Below, one piece after another: positions 1,102 to 9,546 of a DNA stretch of 45,143 bases (its first letter is position 1; the number at the start of each line of letters is the position of its first letter). This stretch comes from Verrucomicrobiaceae bacterium (GTDB lineage: Bacteria; Pseudomonadota; Gammaproteobacteria; Pseudomonadales; CAMLJR01). The notes beneath the pieces were generated by a model. It was not told where the DNA came from and did no database searches. It was given only the letters and a program-made list of their open reading frames with translations. The translations under genes were made by a program, and so were the position numbers. The stretch is taken from assembly GCA_028293825.1 (NCBI GenBank), contig JAQGNY010000033.1:1-45143 (forward strand). Direction: 5' to 3'.

Positions 1102-2832
1102 ATGACCACGACCCCGAGCGCGCCCTCGTTAGTTAATCCTTTCGCCGAAGCAAAAGACGTTGAATTCACCGTCCCAGGCCAGATTAATTATCAACCCGGT
1201 TTATACGAAGCTACCTTAAAGGCGGCTTATGAATTGGTTCAACGTCCGCGCAAAGCCGCGGGCGTAATCAACGTCGAAAAGCAGCACCAGAAAAAACGCA
1301 TGACGGTGTGGGAGCGGATCGAAGTATTGAAAGATCCCAACAGCGAGCCGACCTTTCTGTTTCAGAACTGGGGTCCGAATCTGGACGGCGCTTCGTTGGT
1401 CACGGCGATCATTACCGTCAACGGCCGTGAGGTTGCATTGTACGGTCACGATTTCACCGTGCGTGCCGGTTCGATGGATGCGACCAACGGCAAAAAGCTC
1501 GCACGCTTATTCGAGCTTGCCGCCAAACGTAAAATTCCGCTGGTCGGTATTAACGATTCGGCCGGCGCGTATGTGCCAGCCGGTGTCGGTGGTCTCGACG
1601 GTTACGCGGAAGCATTTACCGCATTGCGCAAAATCAGCGGCGTGGTGCCGTCGATCATGTGTATGTTCGGTTTCAACGCCGGCGGCGGCTCGTATTTGCC
1701 GCGCCAGGGCAGCTTTGTCATTCAACCGAACGATACCTTCTTCGGCCTTACCGGCCCCGGGGTTGTGAAGTCAGTGTTGGGCGAAGACGTAACGCCAGAT
1801 GAGCTCGGCGGCCCCAGCGTTCACTCGCAATCCGGCGTGACCGACTTTGTTGTACCCGATGAAGTCAGCGCATTGCAGAAAGTAAAACAGCTGCTGAATT
1901 ATCTGCCGTCCGGCAATCACGAATTAGCCCCGTTCGAGCCCACTTCCGATCCGATGGATCGCCAAACGTGGGACATCGATATTCTGCTGAAAAAAGCCTT
2001 CAATTCGCCGACCGGTTTCAATACGCCGTTCGATATCAGCATCATCATTCAGCAACTGTGCGATCACGGTGATTTCTTCGAAATTCAATCCGAGCGCGCG
2101 CGTAACACGGTCTGTGCATTAGGTCGCATCGGTGGCAACGTTGTTGGCTTCGTGGCCAATAATTCGTCGGTTGCATCGGGACAAATCGATATCGCTGCCG
2201 CGTACAAAAATGCGCGCTTTATTCGCTTCTGCAACCTGTACAACATTCCGATGATTTTCATGGAAGACACTACCGGCTTCCTACCCGGACGCGAACAGGA
2301 AGCGGGCGGTATCGTCCACGCTGGTCGTGCCATGTTGGATGCGATTATCGATCTGCGTACGCCGCGCTTCCTCGTCATTATCCGCAACGCATTTGGCGGC
2401 GCTTACGCGGCCTACAATAACTATGCGACCGGCGCCGATTTGGTTATTGCATTGCCGAGCACGCGTGCAGCGGTTATGGGCCCAGCCGGCGTTGAGTTCG
2501 TTTATAAAGATGAGTTGCGCGAAATTCGCGGAGCCGTGCCGAAACGGATCGTGACTTCCACTGCCGATAATATTCGCAGTGGCTTAGGCGAAACCGAAGC
2601 CCGTGCCGCAGCGGAAAAAGCCGCGAAACAATGGGCGAAAGAACAAGAAGCGCTACTCGCGCAACGTTACGAAAAAGAGTTGATGAACCCGAATGAAGCG
2701 TTGAGTCTTGGCTCGATTTCGCAAATCGTTTCTGCATCGGATTTGCGCAAGGTCTTGGCTAAAAATCTCACGTTCCATTTAAAACACTACACACCGGAAC
2801 CGTTGAACGCGGTCCAGCGCGAATTCCATTAA
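1102..2832 (+). CDS. Acyl-CoA (probably propionyl-CoA) carboxylase, carboxyltransferase subunit
   Basis: Carboxyltransferase half of a biotin-dependent acyl-CoA carboxylase, moving CO2 from carboxybiotin to the acyl-CoA. The 576 residues show the two crotonase-fold halves of the family. The N-terminal half has [16 protein letters not shown] and [14 protein letters not shown], followed by [13 protein letters not shown] and [16 protein letters not shown]. The C-terminal half has [21 protein letters not shown], the glycine-rich [13 protein letters not shown] and [13 protein letters not shown]. It is longer than typical PccB (about 510-540 residues) because of an N-terminal extension of about 60 residues and a charged tail, a size nearer to glutaconyl-CoA decarboxylase alpha subunits. 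Propionyl-CoA is inferred as substrate because epimerase, mutase and MeaB follow. First gene of the operon; the ATG has only a weak ribosome site. Substrate confidence is moderate, family confidence high. Confidence 0.88.
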
Positions 2833-2869: not shown

Positions 2870-2895
2870 TTTAGGTGAGAGATCTCTCACCTAAA
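2870..2895. repeat. 26-bp perfect palindrome between the two carboxylase subunit genes
   Basis: A perfectly self-complementary 26-base block centred between 2882 and 2883, on the core AGAGATCTCT with arms running out to TTTAGG / CCTAAA. A GTTTTT run follows directly (2896-2901). As RNA it could fold as an 11-bp stem with a GATC loop plus U-tract, which would act as an intrinsic terminator or attenuator for the carboxyltransferase mRNA. As DNA it could be an operator for a dimeric regulator. It lies 38 bases after one gene and about 70 before the next, so it could set the ratio of the two subunits. Confidence 0.7.
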
Positions 2896-2966: not shown

Positions 2967-5816
2967 GTGCAATCAAGCAACAATTATTATTTGAATAATC
3001 CGCTCATTCATAAAGCGCGTCGCGTCAACAGTGCTGCATCCGCATGGGTTCGCAGTTTTGGCTGTGAGGATATGAAACCGCTGATTATTTGTCGCGGGCC
3101 GATTCGCAAAGAGGCGATGGATGTCTTCGATGAAATGGGCGTTCACGGCTACGGTATTTTACTGTCGGAAAAAGATTCGATTACGTATACCAGCGCGCTC
3201 GCACCCGAGCTGCGCAAATTGACCGATCCGCACCGTGTGCACCGCGTGCCCGATTACACTGGCGCGAGTAAAGAAGAGCGCATTCAGCGTATTCGTCAGA
3301 TTATTCAGATCGCGAAAGAAAACGGCTACAACAGTATTTTCGCCGGCTACGGTTTTATGGCCGAAGACGAAGAGATGGTTAAGTCGATGGAAGAGGCGGG
3401 CCTGAAATTTATCGGTCCGTGTTCGTACACCGTGCGCGCCGCTGGTCTGAAAGACGAAGCGAAACGCACTGCGCTGCAGGTTGGCGTATCGACTACCCCG
3501 GGTGTCGATAATCTGACTTCGTTAACGCTGTTGAGTAAATACCCCGATCAAGCGGCGCTGTTGAAACTTTGCCAAGATCAAGGTTTGGCGCTCGATCAGC
3601 AGAAGTTCGATGCGGTACAAACTCTTGAAGAAAAAGCCGATGCCGTGCTATTGGCATCGTACAGAAAAGGTATCGATTTATTCAGCATTGAAGAACTCGG
3701 CGTCGAGCTGAAAAAACAATTGCTGAAAGTATTCGCGGAAAATCGAGACAACCGTTTTCGTTTAAAAGCGATCTCCGGCGGCGGCGGTAAAGGCCAGCGC
3801 ATCATGAATGCGCCGAGCAGCTATCCCGGCAGCGCAGCAGAGCAAGTTGAAGCAGCGGCGGTTAATGGCCCGGCGTTGTTGCGTGAAATTCTCGCCGAAG
3901 TGAAATGCAATGGCGTCGGTGACAACAAAAACGTGTTGATCGAACTCAATATCGAAACTACGCGTCATCAGGAAATTCAAGTCATCGGCAATGGCGAGTG
4001 GTGTATCACGCTCGGCGGTCGCGATTGTTCATTGCAAATGCATGAGCAAAAGCTGCTTGAAGTGTCGGTCACGGTTGAAGAGTTACGCGCAGCCGTAGCG
4101 AAAGCAAAAAGCGATGGCCTCCCAGAGGAAGAGCTCACACTGGCCCGCGATCTCGATATTCTTGAGAAAATGGAAAACGAAGCAGCACGCTTCGGCCAGG
4201 CAGTGAAATTGGATTCGGTGTCGACGTTCGAATGTATCGTCGATGGTCAGCGCCATTTCTTTATGGAAATGAATACGCGGATTCAAGTCGAGCACCGCGT
4301 TACCGAACTTTGCTACAAACTGCAATTTTCGAATCAGGAAAACCCGCAAGAAAATTTCGTCGTCGAATCGCTCGTCGAAGCAATGGTATTGCTGGCGCGT
4401 CACGGCAAGCGGCTGCCGAAACCTGAGCGTCTGCCGCGCGAGCACGCTTCCGTTGAAGCGCGTATGAATGCGACCAACCAAGCATTGCAACCGCATGCCG
4501 GCGGCATCATCGAATACTGGTCGAATGCAATCGAAGGTGAGATTCGCGACGACCAGGGTATCAGCATGCACAATCCGGATACGGATGTGTTCATGAAATA
4601 CCACCTCGCCGGTGCGTACGATTCCAACATCGCACTGTTGCTGACGACCGGTGTCAATCGCCTCGAAAGTTATCAGCGTCTGTCCGAAATCCTGCGCCGT
4701 ACTGAATTGCGCGGTAAAGATCTCGCCACCAATCTCGAATTCCATTACGGCTTGGTGAATTGGTTTATCGGTCACAATATTAATGCGCGTCCCACCACGC
4801 GTTTTATTGTTCCGTATCTGACCGCCGTCGGCCGCTTGAAAGAAGTCGCCAATCAAATCGATTTGAATTTTGCATACGCACAAATTCGCGCGAGCTATCT
4901 GGAAAATGCCGGTGACCATGCGAAGGCATACGCGACCGTGCTCGAACGCAAGCTCGCGTTGATCCTGCGCCCGATTGCAGAATTAATTGCGCAGCCGCAT
5001 TTGTTGTCGGGCTGGCTTGCCATTAATCGCCACAGTTTCACCAGCGCCGGTGGCCGCATTACATGGCTGCGCAACCCGATCGAAATTTTGAGCGAGCTGT
5101 ATCATTTCCTGCATATGGATTACGAGCAGGGCAAGCCTGCCGCGTACATGATTTGGGATCACGATGGCGAATTGCTGAAAGATGCGCAGGCGTTTTATGC
5201 GGCGTTGCAGCAAAAGCTCGGTATTTCCAGCTTCGCCGATGTGCAGGCTGCACTGGCCGGCGCGCGTCCAGACAGCATTTCTGAGACGCAATGGGCGGCT
5301 GCGCAAGCGGCGCATATCGGCTATCAGGCTGGCACCGAAGTGCTGTCGCTGTTGCCGATGGTGGCATTCGATACCGGCTTCTTCGATCTGAAAGTAAATG
5401 CCGATCTGGGTATTACGATTCCCGATGCGCTGCTTGAAAAAGCGTTGCAGGATCGTATGGCGAAAATACTGGTGCCGCCGCCCACTGCGAAATCGGACGA
5501 AATTCTCGCGGCTTCCGGCGGGATGTTCTATGCGCGCGAAGCGCCTGGAATGGATGCGTTCTTGAAAGAGGGCAGTCACTTCACGCGCGGCCAACCGCTG
5601 TACATCGTCGAAGTAATGAAAATGTTCAATAAAGTTTTCGCGCCATTCGCGGGAACGGTGAACAAGGTTTTGATCGATACCGACGGTGTTATCATCAAAA
5701 AAGGCCAGCCTTTGTTTAAGGTGACGCCGGACGAAATTCTGATTATTGAAACGCCCGAAGAAATCGCAGAGCGTATGCGCAAGACGACCGCGGCATTTTT
5801 GGCTCAGCTGTTGTGA
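2967..5816 (+). CDS. Divergent biotin carboxylase with C-terminal biotin carboxyl carrier domain
   Basis: Predicted alpha subunit of the acyl-CoA carboxylase: ATP-dependent carboxylation of its own biotin. 949 residues, long for the family (PccA about 660-720). Order: N-terminal biotin carboxylase domain (about 50-170, GYGFMAEDEE); ATP-grasp region with ISGGGGKG at 269-276; altered signature RDCSLQMHEQK at 352-362 (the family has RDCSxQRRHQK); FMEMNTRIQVEH from 432 with the ATP-grasp Glu/Asn; a biotin carboxylase C-terminal domain (about 480-600); a long helical linker (about 600-850) without a recognised motif; and a biotinyl domain with EVMKM, biotin lysine K885. About 70 extra residues sit in the ATP-grasp region before 269 and about 20 after 362. 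GTG start, with GAGG about ten bases upstream. Family call is firm; pairing with the upstream carboxyltransferase and the propionyl-CoA substrate are inferred from the operon. Confidence 0.85.
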   Translation: MQSSNNYYLNNPLIHKARRVNSAASAWVRSFGCEDMKPLIICRGPIRKEAMDVFDEMGVHGYGILLSEKDSITYTSALAPELRKLTDPHRVHRVPDYTGASKEERIQRIRQIIQIAKENGYNSIFAGYGFMAEDEEMVKSMEEAGLKFIGPCSYTVRAAGLKDEAKRTALQVGVSTTPGVDNLTSLTLLSKYPDQAALLKLCQDQGLALDQQKFDAVQTLEEKADAVLLASYRKGIDLFSIEELGVELKKQLLKVFAENRDNRFRLKAISGGGGKGQRIMNAPSSYPGSAAEQVEAAAVNGPALLREILAEVKCNGVGDNKNVLIELNIETTRHQEIQVIGNGEWCITLGGRDCSLQMHEQKLLEVSVTVEELRAAVAKAKSDGLPEEELTLARDLDILEKMENEAARFGQAVKLDSVSTFECIVDGQRHFFMEMNTRIQVEHRVTELCYKLQFSNQENPQENFVVESLVEAMVLLARHGKRLPKPERLPREHASVEARMNATNQALQPHAGGIIEYWSNAIEGEIRDDQGISMHNPDTDVFMKYHLAGAYDSNIALLLTTGVNRLESYQRLSEILRRTELRGKDLATNLEFHYGLVNWFIGHNINARPTTRFIVPYLTAVGRLKEVANQIDLNFAYAQIRASYLENAGDHAKAYATVLERKLALILRPIAELIAQPHLLSGWLAINRHSFTSAGGRITWLRNPIEILSELYHFLHMDYEQGKPAAYMIWDHDGELLKDAQAFYAALQQKLGISSFADVQAALAGARPDSISETQWAAAQAAHIGYQAGTEVLSLLPMVAFDTGFFDLKVNADLGITIPDALLEKALQDRMAKILVPPPTAKSDEILAASGGMFYAREAPGMDAFLKEGSHFTRGQPLYIVEVMKMFNKVFAPFAGTVNKVLIDTDGVIIKKGQPLFKVTPDEILIIETPEEIAERMRKTTAAFLAQLL

Positions 5817-5868: not shown

Positions 5869-6282
5869 GTGATTGTCGCATTGGATCACATTGCCATTGC
5901 CGTGCCCGATTTGGAGCGCGCGATCAAACGTTTCATGGAAGACTTCGGCCTGCAATTCGAAGGTACCGAAGAAGTCGAGAGCGCAAAAACAGCGACGGCA
6001 TTTTTCCCGTTGCCGGCAACCAGTATCGAGCTGGTGCATCCGCTACGCGGCGAAGGTCCGATTGCAAAATACCTGGAAAAAAAGCCCGGTGGTATTCACC
6101 ATCTGTGTTTTCGCAGCGATGACATCGAGGCCGATGTTGCACGTCTCAAAGCCAAGGGCTATACGTTTTTAAGTGAGTCGCCGACACTGGGCGCTCACGA
6201 CTGCAAAGTGATTTTTATCCACCCGAAATCCTGCGATGGCGTGCTGATCGAATTGAGTCAGCCCACGGCGGATCATCACTAA
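5869..6282 (+). CDS. mce: Methylmalonyl-CoA epimerase
   Basis: Interconverts (S)- and (R)-methylmalonyl-CoA, linking the carboxylase product to the mutase substrate. The 137 residues form one vicinal-oxygen-chelate (glyoxalase-like) protein of normal epimerase length. The start reads [14 protein letters not shown] with the metal-ligand histidine H7. GGIHHLCFR supplies a second histidine (H77/H78), and VLIELSQ near the end supplies the metal-binding E128. GTG start at 5869 with GAGG eight bases before it. It lies 52 bases after the biotin carboxylase and 16 before the mutase, so it is surely in the same operon. Glyoxalase I is an alternative for this fold, but the neighbours settle the role. 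Confidence 0.93.
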
Positions 6283-6298
6283 TTTTCGAAGGTTGGTT

Positions 6299-8485
6299 AT
6301 GGCTGACAACGGTTACAAACCCGCACCGCACTCACGCGAAGAATGGGAAAAGCTGGCAACAAAATCGCTGAAAAGCGGCTCGCTTGACGAGTTGGTTTGG
6401 CACACGGCGGAAGGCATCGACGTTAAGCCTTTGTACACGAAAGCCGATGTGGAAAATCTCCCCTTTGCGGATACCTTCCCCGGCCTTGAGCCGTTTACCC
6501 GTGGCCCGCAAGCGACGATGTACGCGGTCAAACCGTGGACCATTCGTCAATACGCGGGTTTCTCCACCGCCGAAGAATCCAATGCGTTTTATCGCAAGGC
6601 TTTAGCGGCTGGCGGTCAAGGTGTGTCGGTGGCGTTCGATTTGGCGACGCACCGCGGTTACGATTCCGATCATCCGCGCGTGACCGGCGATGTCGGTAAA
6701 GCCGGCGTGGCGATCGACTCCGTCGAAGATATGAAGATTCTTTTCGACAGCATTCCGCTCGATAAAGTATCGGTTTCGATGACGATGAATGGCGCGGTGC
6801 TGCCGATTCTCGCCGGTTACATCGTTGCGGCCGAAGAGCAGGGCGTAAATCAGGATCAATTGTCCGGCACGATTCAGAACGACATCCTGAAAGAGTTCAT
6901 GGTCCGCAATACCTATATTTATCCGCCGGCACCGTCGATGCGCATCATCGGCGACATCATTGCGTATTGCTCTGATCATCTGCCCCAATTCAACACGATT
7001 TCGATTTCCGGTTATCACATTCAAGAAGCTGGTGCCGATGCGGCGCTTGAGCTCGCGTACACGCTGGCCGATGGCAAGGAATACATTCGCACTGCGATTA
7101 GTGCTGGTTTGGATATCGATAAATTCGCCGGCCGTTTGTCCTTCTTCTGGGGCATCGGCATGAACTTCTATATGGAAGTAGCGAAACTGCGTGCAGGCCG
7201 TCAACTCTGGGCGCGCATCGTCAGCGAATTCAATCCGAAAAATCAGCGCTCGAAGATGCTGCGTACGCACTGCCAAACCTCGGGCTGGTCGCTGACCGAG
7301 CAAGATCCTTACAACAACGTGGTGCGCACCACCATCGAGGCGATGGCCGCGGTTTTCGGCGGCACGCAGTCGCTGCACACCAATGCGCTTGATGAAGCCA
7401 TTGCGTTGCCGACCGCATTTTCATCGCGTATTGCGCGCAACACGCAATTGGTGATTCAGGAAGAAACCGGCATTACCAAGGTAGTCGATCCGTGGGGCGG
7501 TTCGTACTTCATGGAATCGTTGACGCAGGAACTCGCTGATAAAGCCTGGGCGATGATCGAAGAAATCGAAGCCGCTGGCGGTATGGCGAAAGCCATTGAA
7601 ACCGGTTTGCCGAAATTGAAAATCGAAGAATCGGCTGCGCGTAAACAAGCGCGTATCGATCGCGGCACCGATGTTATTGTCGGTGTAAATAAATACCGTC
7701 TCGCGACTGAAGACGATGTCGACATTCTCGAAATCGACAACAACTCTGTGCGCGAAGGCCAAGTTAAACGTCTCGCCGACATTCGTGCGCAGCGCGACGA
7801 AAAAGCGGTTGAAGATGCATTAGAAGCTATTTATCAATGCGCTTTATCCCACCATGGCGAGGCTCCTCAAAATGGGAGCGCAGGCAATTTGCTGGATCTT
7901 GCCATTAAGGCCTCGCGTCTGCGCGCAACTGTTGGCGAAATCTCATTTGCGATGGAACGCGTATTCGGTCGTTTCAATGCGCAATCGCAAACGGTTTCCG
8001 GTGTTTACGGCAGTGCGTTTCAGGACGACGAAAACTGGCAGAATATTTCACGCGATATCGAAGCATTCGTCGAAAAACACGGCCGGCGTCCGCGCATGCT
8101 CGTGTGCAAGATGGGCCAGGACGGCCATGATCGCGGCGCGAAAGTAATCGCTACCGCGTTTGCCGACGTCGGTTTCGATATCGATTTGTCGCCGATGTTT
8201 TCGACGCCAGCGGAAGTGGCGCGGCAAGCCGTTGAAAACGATGTGCACGTGGTTGGCGCGTCGTCATTGGCTGCCGGTCACAAAACGCTGGTACCGGAAT
8301 TAATTGCCGAACTTAAGAAGCAGGGCGCCGATGACATCATCGTGATCGCCGGCGGCGTAATCCCGAAACAGGATTACGATTTCCTCGTAAAAGCCGGCGT
8401 CAAAGGTATCTTCGGACCGGGCACGCAAATTCCGATTGCGGCGCGTGATGTGCTGGATGCGATCAACAAGGCGACCGGTAAATAA
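6299..8485 (+). CDS. scpA: Methylmalonyl-CoA mutase, adenosylcobalamin-dependent, single chain
   Basis: Rearranges (R)-methylmalonyl-CoA to succinyl-CoA with adenosylcobalamin. 728 residues from the ATG at 6299, which has GAAGG six bases upstream; a TTG six bases earlier is in frame but badly placed. The N-terminal barrel domain has [21 protein letters not shown] (about 60-80), [18 protein letters not shown] and [17 protein letters not shown]. The C-terminal cobalamin-binding domain has [10 protein letters not shown] with H610 as the lower axial cobalt ligand. Both domains are in one chain, and there is no small-subunit gene next to it, so this is the homodimer type (or the catalytic large chain). 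It ends just before a strong terminator. Confidence 0.95.
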
Positions 8486-8586: not shown

Positions 8587-9546
8587 ATGGCTGATATCAA
8601 TCTCGATTTACTAAGACAGGGTAATCGGCGCGCACTGGCGAAAGCGATAACGCTGGTCGAAAGCAAATTGGATAGCGATCGCCAGAAAGCGCAGGAAGTG
8701 CTCGAGGCCTTATTGCCGTTCACCGGCAACAGCATGCGCGTCGGCATTACCGGCATTCCCGGCGTCGGCAAATCGACCTTTATCGAAACTTTCGGTTTGT
8801 ATTTGATAAGCCTTGGCAAGAAAGTAGCAGTGCTTGCGGTCGATCCGAGCTCGCCGATCGCGGGTGGTTCGATTCTCGGCGATAAAACACGCATGGAAGA
8901 GTTATCGCGGCGCGATGAAGCGTTTATTCGGCCGTCGCCATCCGAAGGTACACTCGGTGGCGTGGCGCAGCACACGCGCGAAACGATGCTGTTGTGCGAA
9001 GCCGCCGGCTACGACGTCATTCTGGTTGAGACCGTCGGGGTCGGGCAGAGCGAATACGAAGTTGCTGGCATGGTCGACTTTTTTATGGTGTTGATGCTGC
9101 CTAATGCGGGCGATGAGCTGCAGGGCATCAAGCGCGGCATTATGGAATTAGCCGACGCACTGGTGATTAACAAAGCCGACGGTGAAAGTCTCAACCTGGC
9201 CTTGCGCACCCGCAGTCATTATCAAAGTGCATTGAATCTGCTGCGGCACACCAGTTTCTGGACCGCGCAGGTAATGACCTGTTCGGCGCAGGAAAAGAAA
9301 AATATCGAAGCCGTGTGGGGCATGATCAGCGATTACCAAGTCGAAGCGCGCAAGAACGGTTGGCTGCTGGAGAAACGCACACGTCAGTCCAAGGAATGGA
9401 TGCATAAATTGATTCACGAAATGCTGCTGTTGCGTTTGCGCCAGAATGCCGATGTGCGTCGTAACATGCCCGAATTCGAGCGCAAGGTTATCGCCGCCTC
9501 GATGACGCCATATCATGCGGCGCGAACGCTCATCGACATGTTGTAG
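8587..9546 (+). CDS. meaB: Methylmalonyl-CoA mutase-associated GTPase MeaB
   Basis: G3E-family P-loop GTPase that guards adenosylcobalamin loading of methylmalonyl-CoA mutase and protects the enzyme from inactivation. 319 residues, normal length. Walker A is GIPGVGKST at 56-64; VDPSSP and GSILGDKTRM follow; the G3-like region is ETVGVGQSE; the guanine-specificity motif is NKAD at 195-198. A C-terminal helical dimerisation arm follows. It sits about 100 bases after the mutase but beyond a terminator, so it may have its own promoter or be expressed by read-through. The alternative family name ArgK (arginine transport kinase) is historical; the context supports MeaB. Confidence 0.95.
   Translation: MADINLDLLRQGNRRALAKAITLVESKLDSDRQKAQEVLEALLPFTGNSMRVGITGIPGVGKSTFIETFGLYLISLGKKVAVLAVDPSSPIAGGSILGDKTRMEELSRRDEAFIRPSPSEGTLGGVAQHTRETMLLCEAAGYDVILVETVGVGQSEYEVAGMVDFFMVLMLPNAGDELQGIKRGIMELADALVINKADGESLNLALRTRSHYQSALNLLRHTSFWTAQVMTCSAQEKKNIEAVWGMISDYQVEARKNGWLLEKRTRQSKEWMHKLIHEMLLLRLRQNADVRRNMPEFERKVIAASMTPYHAARTLIDML

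Follow-up and report, generated by a model that had tools for sequence, protein, structure and literature searches.

The window (the whole 45,143 nt stretch of DNA that was analysed) very probably encodes an alpha subunit with BC and BCCP domains, part of a divergent, lineage-specific propionyl-CoA-type carboxylase, which would replace the canonical PCC and feed the methylmalonyl-CoA pathway in gammaproteobacteria. We base this on the conservation of the protein, its gene neighbourhood, its co-occurrence pattern and the residues that it has kept, and from these we also infer the activity, the substrate and the roles of Glu360 and of a helical connecting domain. The enzyme would probably work like PCC.

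Domain organisation of the alpha subunit

Table 1. Positions in the window of the alpha-subunit gene, its parts and the neighbouring genes
Feature	Position	Strand	Remarks
Carboxyltransferase (CT, beta) subunit	1102..2832	+	PF01039 E 9.3e-110
BC-helical domain-BCCP alpha subunit	2967..5816	+	949 aa; the mechanical ORF begins with GTG
Biotin carboxylase (BC) domain	3063..4820	+	residues about 33-618; VIA-align match to 3g8c_A
First insert	3513..3740	+	within residues about 183-258; from alignment and DSSP of the model; predicted helical
GGGGKG ATP loop	3777..3794	+	residues 271-276; invariant in 41/41 aligned family sequences
Altered signature RDCSLQMHEQK	4020..4052	+	residues 352-362; Glu360 corresponds to E. 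coli His236
Second insert	4074..4139	+	residues about 370-391; from alignment and model; predicted helical
EMNTRIQVEH catalytic stretch	4266..4295	+	residues 434-443; invariant in the family alignment except residue 439
All-helical connecting domain	4779..5486	+	residues 605-840, folded alone; stands where PCC has the BT domain
BCCP (biotinyl) domain with EVMKM	5499..5729	+	residues about 845-921; PF00364 E 9.4e-12
Methylmalonyl-CoA epimerase	5869..6282	+	TIGR03081 142.8 bits, cut-off 114.95
Methylmalonyl-CoA mutase	6293..8485	+	NF006944 1285.7 bits, cut-off 876
MeaB mutase-associated GTPase	8587..9546	+	NF006958 467.7 bits, cut-off 329

The predicted model of the BC domain has the biotin carboxylase (ATP-grasp) fold. 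Its comparison with E. coli BC, which the sequence-only reading had proposed as a check, gave a VIA-align 2 match to 3g8c_A (E. coli BC with biotin, bicarbonate and ADP) with Z 38.4, rmsd 3.3 and 26% identity over 430 aligned residues. The Biotin_carb_C match reaches 25 bits, under its cut-off of 32.4, and the protein lies under the curated cut-offs of the NCBIfam AccC, pyruvate carboxylase and urea carboxylase equivalogs; the best score is 173.8 bits for the pyruvate carboxylase model NF009554 (cut-off 965), with 148.2 for accC (626.5) and 146.3 for urea carboxylase (1303.85). The BCCP domain with its MKM motif is on the same chain, and the motif predicts biotin on Lys885, encoded at 5619-5621. 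EVMKM was found in all 80 named loci described below.

The altered signature and the inserts

The window BC was aligned with E. coli accC (L142, from an annotated genome) and two other BCs of the same genome, and in that alignment it is 28% identical to E. coli AccC. Numbered as in E. coli, the substitutions are R234M, R235H and H236E, with Q233, Q237 and K238 kept, which confirms the earlier description of the signature, M-H-E in place of R-R-H followed by an unchanged Q-K. The same reading had put about 70 extra residues before GGGGKG; the insert is real, but the figure was somewhat high, as the alignment gives about 62 (from Gly133 to Lys159 there are 26 in E. coli, from Gly179 to Lys267 there are 88 here). 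Its estimate of about 20 extra residues past the signature agrees with the 22 counted (Lys238 to Glu276, 38 in E. coli; Lys362 to Glu422, 60 here), and EMNTR is intact as it stated. The alignment also revealed inserts of about 17 residues from the loop to Glu201, about 15 past EMNTR and about 9 farther along, plus an N-terminal extension. Both main inserts are mostly helical in the predicted model, the first one immediately preceding the strand that runs into GGGGKG, and residues 183-270 gave no Pfam match up to E 1.

Conservation of the M-H-E change

From at least 549 stretches related at E 1e-3 in genome_contigs, the best 80 were kept as named loci; being the best-scoring of a longer list, they lean to close relatives. 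All 80 read QMHEQK, 79 of them as RDCSLQMHEQK and one as RDCSVQMHEQK. At the DNA level the signature takes 75 different forms, and each of its codons varies silently apart from that of Met, which has just one codon. As the motif is shared throughout together with this synonymous variation, chance and sequencing error are excluded.

Among 52 further loci, 49 contain the signature and three are fragments without it. Counted as distinct genes, the 49 come to 43; 15 of these match one of the 80 exactly around the signature, which leaves 28 additional ones. Glu and the following Q-K are kept in every one of the 49, including the four most divergent, which read FQINEQK, AQRHEQK, IQRHEQK and VQAHEQK. 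As Glu is kept throughout while positions 234 and 235 vary, H236E is the constant change. The possibility raised at the outset, that the change was an error or a private mutation unique to this sequence, is thereby ruled out. In comparison, 35 canonical BC loci (34 genes, L004 and L176 being one gene) read RRHQK in 31 cases, RRNQK in three and RRFQK in one, with Glu in none. The RRFQK locus, L160 in genome G008, encodes a canonical-type BC of 696 aa with Phe at position 236. The homolog alignment thus shows the change to be common to the named loci, and judged by these sequences the M-H-E change is a fixed lineage variant.

Position 236 and the catalytic residues

Compared to E. coli BC, the window protein keeps K116, K159, E201, H209, K238, E276, E288, N290, R292, Q294, V295, E296 and R338, positions that we take to be essential in the E. 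coli enzyme; K238, R292, Q294, V295, E296 and R338 are presumably those that bind bicarbonate or biotin or do catalysis. The tested catalytic columns, with K116, K159, K238, E276, E288, N290, R292, E296 and R338 among them, are invariant in 41/41 family sequences. The suggestion that the signature change alters bicarbonate or biotin handling is therefore unsupported, since the checked positions are all kept.

A docking study (PMC6271951) places position 236 in the ATP site, in contact with modelled amino-oxazole inhibitors; the residue there is His, replaced by Asn in E. faecalis and S. pneumoniae. H236 is given a gamma-phosphate role in 1DV2 in an excerpt of another paper (PMC2838872); the structure match list gives 1DV2 as an E288K mutant. 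As position 236 lines the ATP site, we read H236E as a change of the nucleotide site and not of bicarbonate or biotin binding. By analogy with the published His236 contacts, Glu at this position probably retunes nucleotide binding rather than chemistry.

The helical connecting domain

A helical domain of about 220 residues, absent from the earlier note, lies between BC and BCCP. Predicted alone (residues 605-840) from 41 sequences, it gave a model with pLDDT 93.6 that is helical with one beta hairpin according to DSSP. Foldseek returned no match to this model below E 0.64, and the best VIA-align match had Z 3.3; in a fold search with the whole model BC matches fill the list, and the connecting domain is not judged there. 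Searched with the window sequence, the region had no Pfam match up to E 1, and the 41 family members gave three weak Pfam matches, each in 1/41. A PDB profile search with the domain gave one match, at E 0.37. The predicted domain has no clear match in the libraries searched, which does not by itself show a new fold.

The BT domain of PCC (PF18140), a feature of canonical PccA, has no match at E 1e-5 in any of 24 genomes that carry the gene, the window genome included, and as this feature is lacking we do not file the protein as canonical PccA. The BT domain of GCC and PCC is described as a long helix in an eight-stranded beta-barrel with a hook that contacts CT, and that of P. aeruginosa MCC as similar with one strand missing (PMC4673880). 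It seems most likely that the helical connecting domain does the job of BT and joins BC and CT through a different architecture. Subunit contacts, which the sequence-only reading had thought might be altered, are likelier affected through the connecting domain than through the signature or the inserts, if they are affected at all.

One divergent family member, L144 (G019:C57, 7909-10149; 747 aa, RDCSIQRHEQK), has a much shorter BC-BCCP connection, so not every member of the family has the helical domain. Encoded close by are a CT and a 906-aa ORF, the latter matching MeaB over its first part.

Gene cluster and CT partner

CT is upstream of BC in all 80 kept loci, and in 62 of them all five genes (CT, BC-BCCP, epimerase, mutase and MeaB) follow in the same order. 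Eight other loci end after CT-BC-epimerase-mutase, two are without the epimerase, one is rearranged and seven have CT and BC only. Among these seven, L041, L081, L092, L093 and L098 read about 8 kb downstream without a mutase, which for L093 is found elsewhere in its genome, and L040 and L070 are cut downstream.

The CT of the window scores far under the mmdA cut-off (338.1 vs 998.8 bits). A position that we take to govern substrate specificity, Asp422 in the PccB of S. coelicolor, corresponds to the residue after GGAY in CT; all 80 kept named loci have Ala there, and the canonical CT (PccB) of genome G041 has Asp. As it is Ala and not Asp, this marker does not point to propionyl-CoA; it is possible that the Ala is a change in acyl-CoA selection going with the divergent BC.

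Between CT and BC there is a perfect 26-base palindrome (window 2870-2895), followed by a T-rich stretch. The region 2830-2970 around it folds with z -4.5, and the 20-base core of the palindrome is single-copy in the window genome with up to 2 mismatches allowed. The terminator scan did not list the palindrome itself and did list an adjoining hairpin at 2844-2862. Possibly the palindrome is an operator or a partial terminator setting the ratio of CT to BC.

Distribution and co-occurrence with the mutase

The BC gene was detected at E 1e-50 in 24 genomes out of a sample of 56 relatives, in two cases as fragments. The mutase (E 1e-80) was detected in 25, the same 24 and G041, that is in 24/24 carriers vs 1/32 non-carriers. 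PCC_BT (PF18140, E 1e-5) was found in one of the 56, again G041, whose cluster holds the mutase, a CT 34.5% identical to that of the window, an alpha subunit of 663 aa with RECSIQRRHQK, and MeaB. Thus every mutase genome of the sample has the divergent enzyme or, in G041, canonical PCC; it should be noted that this co-occurrence is not a statistical test, as a single genome carries the exclusion and relatedness makes the genomes non-independent. Several carriers besides the window genome have further alpha subunits, of about 670 aa, that could contribute. Cultured carriers include Spongiibacter marinus (locus L043) and Litorivivens lipolytica (locus L039). Neither the BC gene nor the mutase was matched in G001, of the same genus as the window genome; in an assembly 89% complete this may be loss or gap.

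Three other BCs were found in the window genome. One (C21, RRHQK) scores as AccC with 750.2 bits (cut-off 626.5), and one (C55, RRNQK), adjoining a pyruvate-carboxylase-B-like ORF, as a PycA-type subunit with 937.5 bits (cut-off 768). The third (C4, RRNQK) has urea carboxylase as its best match, with 1263.5 bits vs a cut-off of 1303.85, its locus covering 812 of 1210 aa. As these three score otherwise, the window gene is the only PCC candidate seen in this assembly, which is 96% complete.

In broader sampling the gene was detected in 114/341 genomes of an order sample (E 1e-90), in 2/369 of a class sample (the window genome and G596 of a different order) and in 1/398 of a phylum sample (E 1e-50), this being the window genome itself; two candidates per genome were scored in the three samples, so misses are possible. 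We found no confirmed relative in viral_contigs and none in plasmids at E 1e-40, and a mobile or viral origin was set aside.

Proposed mechanism and alternative explanations

In the mechanism that we propose, BC would carboxylate the biotin of Lys885 from ATP and bicarbonate by means of the usual residues Lys267, Lys362, Glu422, Glu434, Asn436, Arg438, Glu442 and Arg499, and the adjacent CT subunit would transfer the carboxyl group to propionyl-CoA. The epimerase and then the B12 mutase would produce succinyl-CoA. Glu360 (position 236) would probably act on the binding of the nucleotide rather than on the chemistry, and the helical connecting domain would most likely mediate BC-CT assembly. 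Further, we speculate, with less than even confidence, that the protein belongs to a separate BC lineage outside the AccC, PYC, urea, MCC-like and PCC types sampled, which has replaced PCC in much of the order and combines a helical BC-CT coupler of new fold and a new holoenzyme architecture with an ATP-site Glu that retunes nucleotide use.

The substrate could be another one. An acyl-CoA carboxylase that accepts a wider range of substrates or prefers another one (acetyl-, butyryl- or other acyl-CoA), placed beside the mutase genes for other reasons, would fit the Ala at the CT position discussed above. It would also agree with acyl-CoA carboxylases being commonly promiscuous, as the part of a survey consulted has it (PMC3199775). 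The pairing of carriers with the mutase, together with the absence of PCC_BT from all 24 of them, makes this unlikely in our opinion. Degeneration of BC or an assembly error is far less credible still: the signature is otherwise nearly constant and the scores against BC models are low (25 bits for Biotin_carb_C, at most 173.8 against NCBIfam models where canonical BCs reach 646-1263), but the tested catalytic columns are invariant and the frames open in many genomes, and the same motif in independent assemblies refutes an error.

Neutral drift has a better, though still rather doubtful, standing. It would make the protein a PCC-type alpha subunit on a fast branch, with a signature change and inserts without functional meaning, and it is compatible with the divergent propionyl-CoA-type carboxylase that we prefer, as it denies only a role of the changes. 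Position 236 does vary elsewhere, being Asn in two other BCs of the window genome, Phe in L160 and Asn in two Gram-positive BCs (PMC6271951), and positions 234-235 vary in divergent members of the family while the catalytic residues are kept. Drift does not readily account for a Met-His-Glu that is constant in 80/80 loci while all codons but that of Met vary silently, for the Glu in all 49 further motif-holding loci, the most divergent included, or for a connecting domain of another predicted fold class.

Significance and comparison with known systems

A 2011 survey (PMC3199775) reported PCC alpha and beta as absent from the 69 gammaproteobacteria that it included, with MCC and unassigned acyl-CoA carboxylases (XCC) in some. 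The divergent family probably shows how part of the gammaproteobacteria carboxylates propionyl-CoA. The variant was described in no title or abstract start among the open-licence literature searched. An annotation that relies on BC equivalog models or looks for RRHQK would overlook the family. It offers a natural test of the role of the near-constant R-R-H residues and, as a carboxylase without a recognisable BT domain, a new structural target.

The other BCs sampled stand apart from it. A known structure with the same signature, which the earlier reading had named as counter-evidence, did not appear among the top PDB alignments; the best PDB sequence match (103.5 bits) is a BC reading Q-R-R-H-Q-K. 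The best NCBIfam scores of four canonical BCs are 646-1263 bits, and the PccA of G041 scores 501-647 bits against eleven BC models, compared to a best of 173.8 for the window protein. In a tree of 54 hand-chosen BC-domain rows, 20 family rows are split from 34 canonical rows with SH-aLRT 100, and the two halves of the dividing branch measure 4.73 and 5.22 changes per column, lengths that are rough, as the method was a quick one and some rows are long. Those canonical rows of the tree that are alpha subunits of about 660-720 aa, which appear to be MCC-like, are all on the non-family side.

The window protein resembles E. coli AccC (3g8c) in fold and in the checked catalytic positions, and differs from it by the inserts of about 62 and 22 residues and by H236E. 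With the alpha subunits of MCC and GCC (BC-BT-BCCP) it shares the two-subunit layout of acyl-CoA carboxylases; their BT is a helix in a beta-barrel, as far as the consulted part of PMC4673880 goes, whereas the same region is helical here. With canonical PccA (BC-BT-BCCP; for example human PCC and that of G041), a subunit of an alpha6beta6 holoenzyme, the window protein agrees in the roles of its domains, in the BC fold and BCCP, and in having a CT partner and the same pathway neighbours. The window protein is without a PCC_BT match and has the helical connecting domain instead, and with its 949 aa and M-H-E it is set against the 663 aa and R-R-H of the G041 PccA, from whose BC its own is parted by a very long branch.
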